From contig NZ_JAJNCU010000002.1 of the NCBI RefSeq assembly GCF_021026095.1, forward strand, positions 186,001 through 250,000: 64,000 nt of DNA. The letters run 5' to 3'. Below the pieces are notes generated by a model. That model did not search any database, was not told the DNA's origin, and was given only the letters and a program-made list of their open reading frames with translations. A program made the translations under genes and the position numbers. Origin of the DNA: Salinicoccus halitifaciens (lineage in GTDB: Bacteria > Bacillota > Bacilli > Staphylococcales > Salinicoccaceae). Positions 1,660 through 37,515 of this stretch are shown here, in pieces (position 1 is the first letter of the stretch; each line of letters begins with the position of its first letter).

Positions 1660-1683
1660 GTGCCGGCTATCTGGAGGGGGCCT

Positions 1684-2230
1684 GGCTGTTTAGATAGTCT
1701 TAATAATCCGGCTAACTGAACACTTGGAGGTCCTTGCCGTTTAGATAGCCTTAAAAATTCAGCTATCTGAACACTTGAAGGCCCTTGCCGTTTAGATAGT
1801 CTTAGAAATCCGGATATCTAAACGCTTGGAGGTCCTTGCCGTTTAGATAGCCTTAATAATCCGGTTATCTGAACACTTGAAGGCCCTAGCCGTTTAGTTA
1901 GTCTCAAAAATCCGGCTAACTGAACGCTTGAAGGCCCTTGCCGTTTAGATAGCCTTAATAGTCCAGCTATCTGAACACTTGGAGGCCCTTGCCGTTTAGA
2001 TAGCCTTAATAGTCCAGCTATCTGAACACTTGGAGGTCATAGCCGTTTAGATAGCCTTAATAATCCGGCTAACTGAACACTTGAAGGTCCTTGCTGTTTA
2101 GATAGTCTTAATAACCCAGCTATCTAAACGCTTGAAGGCCCTAGCCGTTTAGATAACCTCAAAAATCCGGCTATCTAAACACTTGAAGGCCCTAGCCGTT
2201 TAGATAATCTTAAAAATCCTCCCATCTGCA
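1684..2230. repeat. tandem array of eleven 51-bp hairpin units (GTTTAG family, array A)
   Basis: Units start at 1688, 1739, 1790, 1841, 1892, 1943, 1994, 2045, 2096, 2147 and 2198, an exact 51-bp step; the last is degenerate. Each unit has a left arm GTTTAGATAG, an A/T-rich loop with CTTAA, a right arm such as CTATCTGAAC, and a linker reading roughly ACTTGAAGGCCCTTGCC. The unit at 1892 has GTTAG on the left and CTAAC on the right, so both arms changed together. Units 1 and 8 carry only the right-arm change. The array fills the space between the fdhA terminator and the terminator of the convergent gene, and contains no credible gene. The same family recurs at 36318-36658. Confidence 0.95.
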
Positions 2231-11991: not shown

Positions 11992-12096
11992 CACACCACT
12001 CCATTAACAATTGATATTAACTAATAACTCTCTACCCCGTAGAAACATGGTGAAATCATGAAATTACGGAATGCGAAGAATTTATTTACATGTCCA

Positions 12097-12340
12097 TCGG
12101 CCAAGTGGGGTTTGGTTTGGCCGATAGAATGCCGCCATCGGCCAAGTGGGATTCGGTTTGGCCGGTAGAACGCCGCCATCGGCCGAGTGGGATTCGGTTT
12201 GGCCGATAGAGCGCCGCCATCGGCCGAGTGGGATTCGGTTTGGCCGGTAGAACGCCCCATCGGCCAAGTGGGGTTTGGTTTGGCCGATAGTCCGCCTGTA
12301 TCGGCCAAATAGGGTCTGGTTTGGCCGGTGGAACGCTGAT
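12097..12340. repeat. tandem array of six 41-bp hairpin units (ATCGGCC family, array C)
   Basis: Units start at 12097, 12138, 12179, 12220, 12260 and 12301 (steps 41, 41, 41, 40, 41). Each has a left arm ATCGGCCAA, a spacer GTGGGGTTTGGT or GTGGGATTCGGT, and a right arm TTGGCCGAT or TTGGCCGGT, then a linker AGAACGCCGCC. Arm differences are mostly A/G or T/C changes that still pair by wobble. The 300-bp intergenic stretch from 12000 to 12343 holds nothing else that I can see apart from short flanks. A sigma-B type promoter follows directly at 12344. Confidence 0.95.
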
Positions 12341-15029: not shown

Positions 15030-16247
15030 ATGAATTACGAAACTACATCCATATTCAAAAACAGGACATTCATGTTGCTGCTCCTTGCCGGCATATTTGC
15101 GGTGACGGGCTTCAGCATGTTCCTGACCACCACGTCGTGGTACGTCATCCGGATGCTCGGCATGCCGGAGATGCTCGGACTTGTGCTGATCGTCATCACG
15201 GTGCCGCGGCTTGTGATGATGATTTACGGCGGCGTGCTTGCAGACAACTATAAAAAATCGACGATCATGTTCGGGACGAATATCACACAGGCCGTGCTGC
15301 TTGCCCTGATCACGATATTCATCTTCACCGACTACATGACACTCGGCTGGTTCCTCGTGCTCTCGGGGCTCTTCGGCATGCTTGATGCGTTCTTCGGACC
15401 GGCGAGCACCTCGCTGATACCAAAGATCGTGGAACGGCCCCAGCTGCAGAAGGCGAATGCTTATTTCCAGGGCGTGGACCAGATTTCATTCCTTCTCGGC
15501 CCGGTGCTTGCCGGATTCATCATGGAGTTCGGTTCAGTGACGGCGAGCTTCTTCACGGCATTCATACTGGTCGCACTCTCCGCCATCTTCGTGTTCCCGC
15601 CGCTGATCAGGGAAGGACCGGTTGAGAACACGGTGAAGCAGACACCACTGCAGAATTTCAGCGAAGGCTTCAATTATGTAAGGCAGTCCAACTTCCTGAA
15701 GGTCGGCATCATCGTGCTGGTGAGTTTGAACTTCTTCGTGTTCGGCACACTTCATATCGCGGTGCCGATTTTGACCGACCTGTACGGCGGCACGCCGATC
15801 AACTTGAGCATCATGGAGATGAGCCTCTCCCTCGGCCTGCTGGTCGGCACGGTCGTGCTCGGCAATTACTATATCAGACGCAAAGGCCGGATGGCACTTT
15901 ACGGACTGCTTGCCACGCTCGTCCTCTACATCATATTCAGCTTCATCGAGAGCCTCACGGTGCTTCCGGTCCTGCTGTTCATGATCGGACTCGCCATGGC
16001 CGCCGTCTTCATCCCGTTCTTCACCGCCGCCCAGCAGATTACGGAAAACAGGATGATGGGGCGGGTCATGAGCCTGATATTCCTTGCCATGAACGGCTTC
16101 GACCCGATCGCCTATGCGATCGTCGGCATCCTGACATCCGCCGGCATCTCCATCCAGTCCGTGCTGCTCGGCTTCGGCCTGATCGGCCTGATCATCGCCC
16201 TCGTCATCCTGTGGAAAGCAAAAGGATTCCAGAAACTTGAAACTTAA
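15030..16247 (+). CDS. MFS exporter (MFS_3 type)
   Basis: This 405-residue transporter has 12 predicted membrane helices. Its family features include the loop VLADNYKKSTIMFGTN after helix 2, GMLDAFFGPASTSLIPKIV and QKANAYFQGVDQISFLLGPVLAG, typical of the enterobactin-exporter/macrolide-efflux group. An AGAGG ribosome site lies 6 bp before the ATG. The next gene is a TetR repressor whose ribosome site overlaps this stop codon, and the shared promoter carries a TetR-type operator. It is therefore probably an inducible efflux pump; the inducer is likely one of its substrates. Confidence 0.85.
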   Translation: MNYETTSIFKNRTFMLLLLAGIFAVTGFSMFLTTTSWYVIRMLGMPEMLGLVLIVITVPRLVMMIYGGVLADNYKKSTIMFGTNITQAVLLALITIFIFTDYMTLGWFLVLSGLFGMLDAFFGPASTSLIPKIVERPQLQKANAYFQGVDQISFLLGPVLAGFIMEFGSVTASFFTAFILVALSAIFVFPPLIREGPVENTVKQTPLQNFSEGFNYVRQSNFLKVGIIVLVSLNFFVFGTLHIAVPILTDLYGGTPINLSIMEMSLSLGLLVGTVVLGNYYIRRKGRMALYGLLATLVLYIIFSFIESLTVLPVLLFMIGLAMAAVFIPFFTAAQQITENRMMGRVMSLIFLAMNGFDPIAYAIVGILTSAGISIQSVLLGFGLIGLIIALVILWKAKGFQKLET

Positions 16248-18423: not shown

Positions 18424-18561
18424 GCCAACGTTGCGAATCCGGTCCTGTATTTCGCAACCTTCGACGGCTATCCCGGCCAACGTTGCGAATCCGGCCCTGT
18501 ATTTCGCAACCTTCGACGGCTATCCCGGCCAACGTTGCGAATCCGGCCCTGTATTTCGCAA
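18424..18561. repeat. tandem array of three 52-bp hairpin units (GTTGCGAA family, array D)
   Basis: Units start at 18430, 18482 and 18534. Each has GTTGCGAA and TTCGCAAC as perfect 8-bp arms around a 13-nt loop (TCCGGCCCTGTAT). A linker reading CCTTCGACGGCTATCCCGGCCAAC separates units one to three. Copies two and three are identical over the hairpin; copy one differs by a single base (GGTCC for GGCCC). The rest of the 18346-18599 interval holds no gene that I can support. Confidence 0.93.
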
Positions 18562-18599
18562 CCATTCACATATTCTCACATTTAAAGGCACAGGGCCCT

Positions 18600-29684: not shown

Positions 29685-30097
29685 CCGGAAAACTGACAGA
29701 GCCTCGCCCGCCTTGATGGCCATCCGGATTTCTTTGAGCAAACCAGCCAGAACCTTGTTGGTTGGCTCTCCATCCGGAAATCCTCCTGAAAACCAGACAG
29801 AGTGTCTCTGGCAGACACCTCCGTCCGGATCTCTTTAAGAAAACCAGACAGAACCCCGTTGGTTGGCGCCTCCGTCCGGATTTCTTTGAGAAAACCAGAC
29901 AGAGGCCCGCTGGCCAACGCCTCCGTCCGGAAATCCGCCCGAAAACCAGACAGAGGCCCGCTGGCCAACGCCTCCATCCGGAAAAACTCCCGGAAACCAG
30001 ACAGAGACCCACTGGCCCACGTCTCCGTCCGGAAATTCTCCCGGAAACCGGACAGAAGCCCGCTGGCCCACGTCTCCATCCGCCGGACCGGGGCGAG
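29685..30097. repeat. tandem array of about eight 51-bp hairpin units (TCCGG family, array E)
   Basis: Units begin ATCCGGA or GTCCGGA at 29722, 29772, 29823, 29874, 29925, 29976, 30027 and 30078 (steps 50, then 51), with a degenerate piece upstream near 29683. Arms are CCGTCCGG on the left and CCAGACAG on the right; on the minus-strand RNA they pair fully if G-U pairs are allowed. A second short hairpin sits in the linker (GGCCCGCTGGCC, or TGTCT-ctggc-AGACA at 29803). The array ends five bases before the LysR stop codon. It fills the 530-bp space between the two minus-strand genes, and I see no gene in it. Confidence 0.95.
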
Positions 30098-34457: not shown

Positions 34458-34568
34458 ATTTTTGGAGAACTTTATTTCGAAAATCATGTGAATTTTTTAA
34501 TGAACTTCCGTCCCACAGTACATTAACGTGTTAAAGTATTATTAGTTTTATATGAAGGAGGAATAATG

Positions 34569-36242
34569 ATGAATAAATACATGTTGCTTATGCTGACGGG
34601 TGTGCTTGCTTTGGTGCTCTCGGCCTGCGCGGACGATTCCAATGTGGATGAAGCGGCGGAAGGGGACGGCGCGGCGGATGCGGGCGACCTTGTGATCGCC
34701 ATGCAGGATGACGTCGTCTCCATCGACCCGCACGGCAGCAACGACACCGCTTCGGCGCAGGTGCGCATGAATATATACGAGACGCTGGTGAATCAGACCA
34801 TGGAGATGGAACTCACCGCAGGCCTGGCCGAGGAATGGGAGACCATTGAAGATGATGTGTGGAACTTTCAGCTCAGGGAAGGCACGACCTTCCACAGCGG
34901 CGAGGCATTCACGGCAGAAGATGTGAAGGCGACGCTCGACCGTGTGAATGATGAGGCGGTCGCATCGGAAGCGGCCTTCCTGTTCGAGATGATCGAGGAA
35001 GTGGAGATCGTCGGTGATTATGAAGTGAACATCCATACCGAGTTCCCATTTGCACCGCTGCCGAGCCATCTCGCGCACAACACCGGCGGCATCATCAGCA
35101 AGTCGCTGATCGATGAGGATTATCAGTATGCGCTCGATGAAGCGGGGGTCGATATGACGGCGGATGAGTATTACGTGCTCCGCGAAGACGGCGGGGATGA
35201 GTATGAGGAAGTCATGGATCAGATTTCCGAACATGTCGGTTCGGTGATCGGCTCCGAGACGGACGGCACGAACCATGTGATGCTTGAAGAACGAAATCCG
35301 GGACAGGAAACGGTCCTGACGAAGTTTGAGGGTTTCCAGGGAGAAGGCGGTGAACGCGGCTTTGATACGGTGACTTTCCGCGTCATTCCGGAGTCCGGTG
35401 CGAGGCTTGCGGAGCTTGAGACGGGCGGCGTCCAGATCGTCCGTGATGTTGACTCTGCGAATGCGGACCGTGTCGAAAGCGGCGAAAATACGGAGCTTTT
35501 GGAGCAGGAATCATCCCGTACGGATTATTTGGGCTTCAACACTGAAAAGGAGCCGTTTGATGACGTGCGCGTCAGGCAGGCCATTGCATATGCAATCGAC
35601 AGGGACATGATCGTCGAAGGCGTCTACGACAACATGGGCATTGCAGCCACACACCCGATTGCACCGGATGTATGGGGTTATGACGATTCACTCGACGGCC
35701 GTGAATATGACCTGGAGAGGGCGAAAGAACTACTCGCAGAAAGTGATCATCCGGACGGATTCTCGACCGAACTGTGGGTGAGGGACGATCAGATGAACGT
35801 CGACACTGCCTTGTACATCCAGGAAAGCCTGGCCGAGCTCGGCATTGAAGTGTCGGTGCAGCAGCTTGAATGGGGCACGTTCCTTGAGCGGACGGGCCAG
35901 GGCGATCATGAAATGTTCGCAATGGGCTGGACGACGGTGACCGGTGATGCCGACAACGGATTATACGCACTGTATCATTCGGAGAATAAAGGCGCGACAG
36001 GCAACCGTTCATTCTATGCAAATGATGAACTGGACGCGGCACTCGATGCAGGACGGAGCGAGGCTGATGAAGGCGACCGCGCCGATGCCTATTCGGCCGC
36101 ACAGGAAATCATCATTGAAGAAGCACCGACGGTCTCACTCGTCCATCCGAACTTCGCGGTCGGCGTGGATACGTCACAAGTTGACGGCGTGGCCATCGAC
36201 CCGATCGGCCTGGTGCGCATAGAGAATCTGACATTCAAATAA
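34569..36242 (+). CDS. peptide ABC transporter substrate-binding lipoprotein (OppA family), copy 2
   Basis: This 557-residue tandem paralogue of the gene at 32709 aligns over the whole length. It has lipobox LSAC, a shorter acidic linker, the start DLVIAMQDDVVSIDPHGSNDTASAQV and the same LLEQESSRTDYLGFNTEKEPFDD core. Differences cluster in lobe two (for example NGLYALYHSENKGATGNRSFY against YGLYALHHSDNFGAVGNRSFY), which could change ligand preference. The start is the second of two adjacent ATGs, 7 bp after AGGAGG. Copy 2 uses more G/C-ending codons than copy 1. No transporter core genes are nearby. Confidence 0.88.
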   Translation: MNKYMLLMLTGVLALVLSACADDSNVDEAAEGDGAADAGDLVIAMQDDVVSIDPHGSNDTASAQVRMNIYETLVNQTMEMELTAGLAEEWETIEDDVWNFQLREGTTFHSGEAFTAEDVKATLDRVNDEAVASEAAFLFEMIEEVEIVGDYEVNIHTEFPFAPLPSHLAHNTGGIISKSLIDEDYQYALDEAGVDMTADEYYVLREDGGDEYEEVMDQISEHVGSVIGSETDGTNHVMLEERNPGQETVLTKFEGFQGEGGERGFDTVTFRVIPESGARLAELETGGVQIVRDVDSANADRVESGENTELLEQESSRTDYLGFNTEKEPFDDVRVRQAIAYAIDRDMIVEGVYDNMGIAATHPIAPDVWGYDDSLDGREYDLERAKELLAESDHPDGFSTELWVRDDQMNVDTALYIQESLAELGIEVSVQQLEWGTFLERTGQGDHEMFAMGWTTVTGDADNGLYALYHSENKGATGNRSFYANDELDAALDAGRSEADEGDRADAYSAAQEIIIEEAPTVSLVHPNFAVGVDTSQVDGVAIDPIGLVRIENLTFK

Positions 36243-36251
36243 TTGCTGGGA

Positions 36252-36278
36252 GGTCGGGACATGGGTCCCGGCCTTTTT
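36252..36278 (+). terminator. terminator of OppA-like copy 2
   Basis: GGTCGGGAC (36252-36260 region) pairs with GTCCCGGCC with one G-T pair, followed by TTTTTGT. Confidence 0.82.
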
Positions 36279-36317
36279 GTATTTTGAGGGTTTTTATGGG
36301 GGGCGGCGAGGCTTGCT

Positions 36318-36658
36318 GTTTAGATAGCCTTAAAAATCCAGCTATCTGAACGTTTGAAGAGCCTTTCTGTTTAGTTAACCTTAAAAATCCAGCTAACTAA
36401 ACGTCTGAAGCTCCTTGCTGTTTAGATGGCCATAAAAATCCAGCTATCTGAACGTTTGAAGAGCCTTTCTGTTTAGTTAACCTTAAAAATCCAGCTAACT
36501 AAACGTCTGAAGCCCCTTACTGTTTAGATAGCCATGAAAATACAGCTAACTAAACGTTTGAAGTCCCTTACTGTTTAGTTAACCTTAAAAATCCAGCTAA
36601 CTAAACGCTTGAAGGGCCTTACTGTTTAGATAGCCATGAAAATCCAGCTAACTGAACA
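36318..36658. repeat. tandem array of seven 51-bp hairpin units (GTTTAG family, array B)
   Basis: Units start at 36318, 36369, 36420, 36471, 36522, 36573 and 36624, all 51 bp apart. Left arms alternate between GTTTAGATAG (units 1, 5, 7; GATGG in 3) and GTTTAGTTAA (units 2, 4, 6). Right arms follow in units 1 to 4 and 6: CTATCTGAAC or CTAACTAAAC. The array therefore has a 102-bp higher-order period. Units 5 and 7 carry a mismatched pair. It is the same family as array A at 1684, about 34.6 kb away. The array fills the gap between a terminator and the next promoter; no gene is seen in it. Confidence 0.95.
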
Positions 36659-36690
36659 CCTCAGTTGTCCGCAGGGTATACGCTGACTTG

Positions 36691-36719
36691 TTGTGCATCT
36701 TCAGGAACTCGATTATGAT
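36691..36719 (+). promoter_or_regulatory. promoter of the beta-lactamase-like gene
   Basis: TTGTGC (36691-36696), a 17-bp spacer and TATGAT (36714-36719) lie just downstream of array B. The transcript would begin only a few bases before the ribosome site. Confidence 0.55.
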
Positions 36720-36741
36720 GATGTATAAAGGGGGAGTCACC

Positions 36742-37515
36742 ATGATGAAAGAAGAGATAGACATGCTGGTGCGGCAGCAGTCGACGAAAAACATCTCGTA
36801 TGTGATCGAACACGAAGGGGAAGTGATCCGTCACCGGGAAAATAAAGTCCATCGCTCGGCAAGCGTCATCAAAATACCGCTCTGCCTTGCCGCACTTAAA
36901 AAGGCGCACGATGTGGATCGGGATGACCTGCTGCTCGTCAAAAAGAAGGTCGGCGGTTCGGGGGTGCTTCATGCATTGAATGATGTGGAAGTGATTCCTC
37001 TGAAAGATACGGTGGTGCTTGCGATGATCGTCTCGGACAATACGGCTTCCAACATGCTGATGGACTATGTCGGATTTAAAAATCTTGAGAAATCATTCAG
37101 GGAGTGGGGCATCAACGACTCGGTGCTCGGGCGGCATTTCATGGATACGTCGGGGGATGCATCTAAAATATCGAACACCGCCACTGCCGAAGATATGATG
37201 ACGGCACTTCACCTTATATATGAAGAAAATAAATTCATCCCGGAGCCTGTGAGACAGGATATGCAGAAGCATATGCGCAATTCGCAGTTCAACGACCGCG
37301 TCGGCGGTGCGCTGAACGACGGCGGGGATGAGGATCATATCACCGTGTCGAATAAGACGGGCACGCTTGATAACCTCGAGCATGACATCGGCGTCCTGCA
37401 GTCGAAGGATAAGACGGTGAAGTTCTCCGTGCTCTCTTCTGATTGGAACAGCAACCTCGAAGCACGGTATTTCCTGAATGACCTCGGAAAAACCCTGATT
37501 AAATACTTCCAATAA
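36742..37515 (+). CDS. cytoplasmic class A beta-lactamase-like serine hydrolase
   Basis: The 257 residues carry all three penicillin-recognising motifs of the class A fold: SVIK (Ser41, Lys44), SDN (98-100) and KTG (205-207). There is no signal peptide and no lipobox, so unlike true secreted beta-lactamases it should remain inside the cell. Proteins of this type (PF13354) are common in Bacillota, and their substrate is mostly unknown. A peptidase or amidase role is possible. The start is one of two adjacent ATGs after GGGGGAG. It ends in a terminator shared with ggt. Confidence 0.82.
   Translation: MMKEEIDMLVRQQSTKNISYVIEHEGEVIRHRENKVHRSASVIKIPLCLAALKKAHDVDRDDLLLVKKKVGGSGVLHALNDVEVIPLKDTVVLAMIVSDNTASNMLMDYVGFKNLEKSFREWGINDSVLGRHFMDTSGDASKISNTATAEDMMTALHLIYEENKFIPEPVRQDMQKHMRNSQFNDRVGGALNDGGDEDHITVSNKTGTLDNLEHDIGVLQSKDKTVKFSVLSSDWNSNLEARYFLNDLGKTLIKYFQ

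Follow-up and report, generated by a model that had tools for sequence, protein, structure and literature searches.

Block duplication in an intergenic array of Salinicoccus halitifaciens, and the nearly fixed period of such arrays in its order

INTRODUCTION

Between a solute-binding protein gene and a Beta-lactamase2 family gene of Salinicoccus halitifaciens lies an array of seven 51-bp units (array B), each built around an inverted repeat. Two questions are raised by this locus: how its units came to alternate in sequence, and why arrays of unrelated sequence keep so narrow a range of unit lengths. The window, that is, the whole stretch of 64,000 nucleotides that was analysed, corresponds to positions 186001-250000 of contig C4 of a 2.68-Mb genome (G000). 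It was compared with Salinicoccus kekensis DSM 23173 (G002), which belongs to the same genus, and with Lacicoccus alkaliphilus DSM 16010 (G001).

RESULTS

Array B and its surroundings

The features of the window on which the analysis draws are the following.

34566..36242, + strand: upstream gene, family 5 solute-binding protein (PF00496, E=3.1e-85)
36252..36279, + strand: terminator-like hairpin with a T run, between the upstream gene and array B (-23.8 kcal/mol, crude finder)
36312..36657, no strand: array B; its seven 51-bp units each consist of a dyad spanning 34 bp (about GTTTAGWTRR ... YYAWCTRAAC) and a 17-bp linker; first dyad at 36318-36351
36312..36515, no strand: duplicated 102-bp block, array B units 1-2 and 3-4 (from unit identities and the permutation p=0.0079)
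36688..37515, + strand: downstream gene, Beta-lactamase2 family protein by domain match (PF13354, E=1.4e-45); coordinates of the open reading frame, likely start the ATG at 36742
1681..2219, no strand: array A, 10.6 units of 51 bp of the array B family, between convergent genes, with terminator-like hairpins on both sides
12094..12336, no strand: array with six 41-bp units from a different family (ATCGGCCAAG ... TTTGGCCGAT), flanked by divergent genes
18424..18563, no strand: array with 2.7 copies of a 52-bp unit from a further family (AAGGTTGCGA / TCGCAACGTT), between convergent genes
29723..30082, no strand: array with about six 51-bp units from a further family (CTCCRTCCGGA ... CCAGACAGAG)

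Besides that of array B, the window holds three more families whose periods are of much the same sort (41, 52 and 51 bp), and which the sequence-only finding on array B leaves unmentioned. The S. kekensis orthologue of the array at 12094..12336 holds about one unit. In the gap at 18424-18563, S. kekensis has an unrelated 51-bp array of the CTGCTCA family instead, so that two different arrays occupy one site. A TPP riboswitch (RF00059, 9821-9912), away from the arrays, was the single Rfam match in the window.

The first four units of array B

Tandem Repeats Finder (TRF) described array B better with a period of 102 bp (92% matches, score 566) than with one of 51 bp (83%, 469). Units two steps apart were on average identical at 45.8 of 51 positions, against 41.7 of 51 for adjacent units (unit-order permutation, p=0.0079), and the pairs 1-3 and 2-4 matched at 49/51 and 50/51 positions, the pairs 3-5, 4-6 and 5-7 at 43/51, 46/51 and 41/51. 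The 102-bp super-period that the sequence-only reading had ascribed to the whole array is thus a property of units 1-4, which units 5-7 barely follow. The linkers had likewise been said to alternate; they do so strictly in units 1-4, while unit 5 carries GTTTGAAGTCCC, unit 6 carries GCTTGAAGGGCC and unit 7 is a degenerate end. Units 1 and 3 had been assigned the arm pair GATAG/CTATC, which is right except that the left arm of unit 3 reads GATGG; the unit alignment also bore out that in units 5 and 7 the left arm is GATAG and the right arm CTAAC. Growth by duplication of a two-unit block is supported for units 1-4, units 5-7 again following only weakly. In array A, no two-unit order was found (unit-order permutation, p=0.26). 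Unequal exchange or slippage would add or remove one or a few units per step, and we propose that the super-period of array B could have arisen by unit gain and loss of this kind.

Array B in related genomes

Contig C5 of S. kekensis is largely collinear with contig C4 of the window genome, the long blocks being mostly 88-95% identical. At the array B gap it holds five units, compared with seven in the window, the first of them split by an insert of about 2.3 kb; unit order and number therefore differ between the two species, as a history of expansion and contraction had been predicted to show. Since the S. kekensis orthologue contains both arm types without any such alternation, the block duplication is most readily dated to a time after the two species separated. 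Array B is absent from L. alkaliphilus (no TRF array at the locus), where the upstream gene's end is followed by the hairpin and then by the downstream gene.

The S. kekensis insert (C5, about 170106-172391) lies inside array B and, judged by eye, is flanked by short GATGG repeats and has similar inverted ends. It contains two ORFs of 100 amino acids or more, one of them lipoprotein-like, with no transposase evident by eye. It looks like a non-autonomous element; an IS element had been the first reading.

Stepwise change in unit number, which had been suggested as a check in relatives, was examined along the two contigs. In comparisons of array length limited to changes above 20 bp, with most loci counted from both sides, two arrays lacking anchors and the array B row including the S. 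kekensis insert, 24/33 came within 0.10 of a unit of a whole number; the deviations averaged 0.109, where chance would give 0.25. Copy changes between relatives by close to whole units, the behaviour of a minisatellite, were thus seen in most comparisons. The other 9/33 were not near a whole unit, and include the site at which the 52-bp family faces a different, 51-bp family in S. kekensis.

Array A and other loci of the family

Arrays A and B had been placed in one family, and their 79% identity across the matched part confirms it. The further proposal that units convert between the two loci was not supported: the units of array A are on average nearer those of its S. kekensis orthologue (0.81) than those of array B (0.767). 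For the best single pair of units, identity was 0.88 between array B and its S. kekensis orthologue, 0.78 between array A and that orthologue, and 0.86 between arrays A and B; a 1-bp shift in the S. kekensis orthologue of array B lowers its mean identities. Recent A-B conversion in particular finds no support in these unit comparisons.

By a hand count of matches, the family occupies nine loci in the window genome and nine in S. kekensis. Its cluster also takes in one array each from G003, G004 and G033, the last belonging to a different family of the order. The dyad span was 34 bp in 32/33 forward rows among the matches listed for the window genus and G033 (50 matches, 26-42 bp allowed), while among the matches listed elsewhere spans scatter from 26 to 41 bp.

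Periods of non-coding arrays in the order

Non-coding arrays of period 30-80 bp were collected by running TRF on 2.31 Mb of sequence drawn from 15 genomes in the order. Among the 78 obtained, 22 had a period of 41 bp, 2 of 42, 1 of 50, 40 of 51 and 9 of 52; the remainder were one array each at 33, 36, 54 (a short array) and 75 bp, which places 74/78 at 41-42 or 50-52 bp. All arrays with three or more copies (54/54) had a period of 41, 42, 51 or 52 bp. Arrays of 41-42 or 50-52 bp were present in 10/15 sampled genomes; in the surveyed sequence none was found in G022 (180 kb), G060, G016 or G034, and G006 held only the arrays of 33 and 75 bp, which are of coding type. The stretches of G001, G003, G004, G008, G011 (first run), G033 (first run) and G060 had been picked around earlier pattern or protein matches; because of this non-random sampling the counts give no array density, and the CTGCTCA and GTTTAG families are over-drawn. 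A later sample of 400 kb in 9 runs yielded periods of 41, 41 and 39 bp in G084, 51 bp (2.2 copies) in G016 and 61 bp (2.6 copies) in G097. The remaining six runs, of which two were on genomes with arrays elsewhere, yielded no non-coding arrays. The 61-bp array (stretch L187 of G097, 15556-15714) is non-coding, and its unit is near six helical turns.

The coding filter had removed 13 arrays, and one 52-bp array of the window genome was restored for the analyses of clustering, phasing, arms, gene context and copy number, from which the arrays of period 33, 36, 54 and 75 bp were excluded. The resulting 75 arrays fell into 25 clusters, i.e. about 25 sequence families at the threshold used, which is strict and arbitrary (a looser first setting chained nearly all arrays together); the linkers of these families were compared by eye. 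Array period is therefore nearly fixed, at 41 or 51-52 bp, across about 25 sequence families.

Unit geometry and arm sequences

Dyads were found in most arrays. Their inverted arms are of about 10 bp and their span is nearly fixed within a family: in the CTGCTCA family it was 38 bp in 68/73 forward rows among the matches listed (150 matches, seven genomes, 24-40 bp allowed), so that spans of 34 and 38 bp occur with the same 51-bp period. Families and loops can also replace one another inside an array. In S. kekensis (C5:248803-249236) a CTGCTCA-family array runs into a GTTTAG-family array with the 51-bp register kept, and the orthologue of this mixed array in the window genome (C4:145083-145390) contains a hybrid unit with one arm from each family. 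In a 41-bp array of G084 (stretch L182, 6457-6772) the 16-bp loop is swapped half way for an unrelated 16-bp loop, the outer arms and linker remaining the same. The step from one family to the next measures 42 bp in G033 instead of 51. Differing spans at one period, together with replacement of families and loops without loss of register, indicate that unit length is largely kept while sequence changes.

In each of four families examined, information content was higher in the arms than in the loops, a comparison biased towards arm conservation by the dropping of units with fewer than 12 matching arm positions; the family CGTAAG with AAGGTTGCG retained only 7 arrays, of two sub-types. The two unit types of array B had been called co-varying, for which the evidence proved weak. 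The arms GTTAA and CTAAC are imperfect partners, A facing C at one inner position, and in array B in isolation the A/T arm position is paired in 5/7 units, with a chance of about 0.29 (6/21, calculated by hand). In 88 units from 20 arrays of the family this position was paired in 39/88, whereas shuffling across all units predicts 30.3 (p=0.005) and shuffling inside each array predicts 34.8 (p=0.047); for all arm positions together the values were p=0.046 over all units and p=0.084 within arrays. An earlier extraction by regular expression had given 32/83 paired, below chance. Compensatory arm changes were thus weak at one position of this family, and none were seen within arrays in three others. 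G.U combinations were not in excess of A.C combinations in 3/4 families (46 vs 47, 27 vs 43 and 4 vs 6); in the fourth, 47 G.U and 17 A.C combinations were near the column prediction (43.3 vs 12.6). The weak covariation of the arms, with G.U not favoured in three of the families, argues to some extent against a role as RNA or hairpin. Array B had sub-threshold Rfam matches, and no family above threshold.

Helical phasing of A/T content

The relative power of the helical harmonic of A/T content was 2.04 for 51-bp arrays (10 families), 3.26 for 52-bp arrays (1 family) and 1.46 for 41-bp arrays (12 families), while control windows gave 1.07 (non-array intergenic sequence, 2505 cut) and 0.95 (coding sequence, 1937 cut). 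The family mean was 2.03, compared with 0.97 and 1.13 for the neighbouring harmonics. Phasing at 10.2-10.4 bp was therefore clear for the 51-52 bp arrays and weak for the 41-bp class, in which the next harmonic was equally strong (1.53); in the 52-bp family harmonics 8 and 11 were strong too (2.41 and 3.10). When each array was counted separately the lead was small at 51 bp (0.068 vs 0.063 and 0.061), and at 41 bp another harmonic led. Taken singly, 18/75 arrays were phased with p<0.05.

Gene context

With genes called by a hexamer ORF caller, 55/57 arrays lay outside called genes, the remaining two being coding-type repeats. In five genomes arrays were found in 32/178 convergent gaps and in 21/691 others (odds ratio 7.0, p=5e-11), gaps common to the window genome and S. 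kekensis not being independent. For gaps of 120-250 bp after subtraction of array length, the figures were 19/49 convergent, 10/148 tandem and 2/119 divergent. The preference was weak in G005 (3/48 vs 5/208). A terminator-like hairpin was present at 57/80 gene 3' ends facing arrays, as detected by a crude finder that reaches 25 bp into the array.

DISCUSSION

The nearly fixed period and the preference for convergent gaps hint at a role in packing or untwisting DNA rather than at simple junk. A role at the DNA level involving helical phasing appears to fit the data best, partly by inference, and a tolerated minisatellite is almost as likely. Tentatively, the arrays may be helically phased DNA that carries a protein able to bend or wrap it at places left over-twisted by converging transcription, much like BIME-2; by that analogy, and that of the periodic gyrase motif of Escherichia coli, we infer gyrase or a nucleoid protein as the partner. 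The arms would be half-sites for a dyad-symmetric DNA-binding protein, and a period of whole turns would place every bend and every site on the same side of the helix, which is why we propose that an array could hold a wrapping or bending complex. Such an array might then act as BIME-2 does in E. coli, as a strong gyrase site or a topological buffer between converging genes. Helical phasing predicts a period of 61 bp, and also one of 31 bp, of which none was seen in the samples; it does not predict 54 or 39 bp. Against this reading, a single protein would hardly require some 25 unrelated arm sequences, and L. alkaliphilus does without array B. In E. coli, according to PMC6379681, the gyrase signal of BIME-2 is independent of transcription: it rises rather than falls when transcription is blocked.

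Another account, which we hold to be possible and nearly as credible, is that the arrays are tolerated or selfish minisatellites descended from one 41-bp and one 51-bp ancestor, propagated by slippage and unequal exchange and surviving between convergent genes; convergent gaps may merely tolerate them. It agrees with copy changes that are mostly of whole units, with the degenerate terminal units, with arrays lying mostly outside transcription units, with the presence of array B in two species and its absence from the L. alkaliphilus junction, and with the super-period of array B, which unequal exchange would be expected to produce. Neutral drift should, however, scatter the period, which instead survives complete sequence change, and neither the arms common to loci of different genomes with differing loops nor the array-specific helical phasing would be expected.

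A bolder form of the phasing proposal is less likely than not. In it, a lineage of Gram-positive bacteria would maintain, across the chromosome, arrays on which a protein that manages supercoils docks between converging genes; these would be helically phased and independent of sequence, the register being fixed and the sequence free to change, even inside a single array. All that the arrays would then have in common is inverted arms and a unit as long as four or five turns of the helix, which would make them a structural code rather than a sequence motif.

It is improbable that the arrays are operator-like sites at which bound proteins form road-blocks to read-through polymerase between convergent genes, with no topological role. 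Conserved inverted arms and convergent placement agree with this, but the near whole-turn periods and the A/T phasing would be left unexplained, and the many arm families would require many proteins.

Slightly less probable still are REP/BIME-type non-autonomous repeats moved by a transposase. The arrays do consist of intergenic palindromic units in tandem, with several families per genome and mixed arrays, and the complete lack of array B at the L. alkaliphilus junction would agree with mobility. Against this, no Y1 (RAYT-type) transposase (PF01797) was found in the window genome or S. kekensis, and only a fragment in 1/6 genomes of the genus, in a search that covered the window genus and whose control was positive in 5/14 known genomes. 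Visual inspection of the consensus units showed no GTAG or CGTC tag and no constant flank of that kind beside the stem. At most orthologous sites the difference amounts to whole copies of a unit already present. Plasmids and phages gave no match to the array B family, and plasmids none to one mixed array. The units are arranged head to tail and do not alternate, the central AAAAATC pointing in one direction in arrays A and B and in the mixed-family arrays inspected; for the remaining arrays orientation was judged solely from TRF tandem calls. Membership of the REP/BIME class was rejected on the lack of a transposase in the two main genomes, of the tag and of alternating orientation.

Least probable of all is that transcribed arrays act as RNA hairpins, terminators or 3'-end stabilisers between converging genes: the dyads can fold and the arrays are located at gene 3' ends, yet covariation within arrays is slight, G.U excess is lacking in three of four families, no above-threshold Rfam family falls on array B and most of the facing 3' ends already have a terminator-like hairpin before the array.

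If the period is selected, each chromosome offers many natural replicates in which to ask whether bacteria build helically phased DNA as a means of managing supercoils. BIME-2 had raised this question of phased DNA between converging genes and could not separate it from sequence; here copy number, period and arm sequence vary apart, and each can therefore be tested apart. If the arrays are only minisatellites, the near-absence of periods besides 41 and 51-52 bp still needs a mechanism.

Comparison with known systems

MIRU/VNTR loci and the staphylococcal STAR minisatellites resemble the present arrays as intergenic tandem repeats, with units some tens of bp long and variation among strains; the present arrays differ in having a period and dyad geometry common to unrelated families. 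Papers on bacterial stem-loop families (PMC2267715) and on the genome of Salinicoccus roseus (PMC10642018) might bear on them. Among the titles and opening lines of abstracts listed from an open-access library, no description of such arrays in this clade was found.

The repeats tagged with GTAG or CGTC are similarly palindromic and intergenic, mostly between convergent and co-directional genes, and most of their loops are very short, as set out in PMC3733652, whose main text contains neither 'firmicutes' nor 'staphylococc'; here the loops of the two best-known families are of roughly 12-18 bases and the tag is unseen.

The BIME-2/REP arrays of enterobacteria, as described in parts of PMC2817692 and PMC6379681, are also intergenic arrays of imperfect palindromes in variable number, and BIME-2 binds gyrase. 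The REPs of enterobacterial BIMEs switch orientation from one to the next and are associated with RAYT transposases (same sections of PMC2817692 and PMC6379681), whereas the present arrays run head to tail, with a nearly fixed period of 41 or 51-52 bp and no RAYT-type gene in the two main genomes. Gyrase sites of E. coli, enriched in BIME-2, show a GC periodicity of 10.75 bp on both flanks in the data of PMC6379681. The consensus gyrase site described there resembles the present arrays in that base composition is helically periodic over the flanking arms, clearly so in the 51-52 bp classes and weakly in the 41-bp class, at a period of 10.75 bp in E. coli and of 10.2-10.4 bp in the present arrays.
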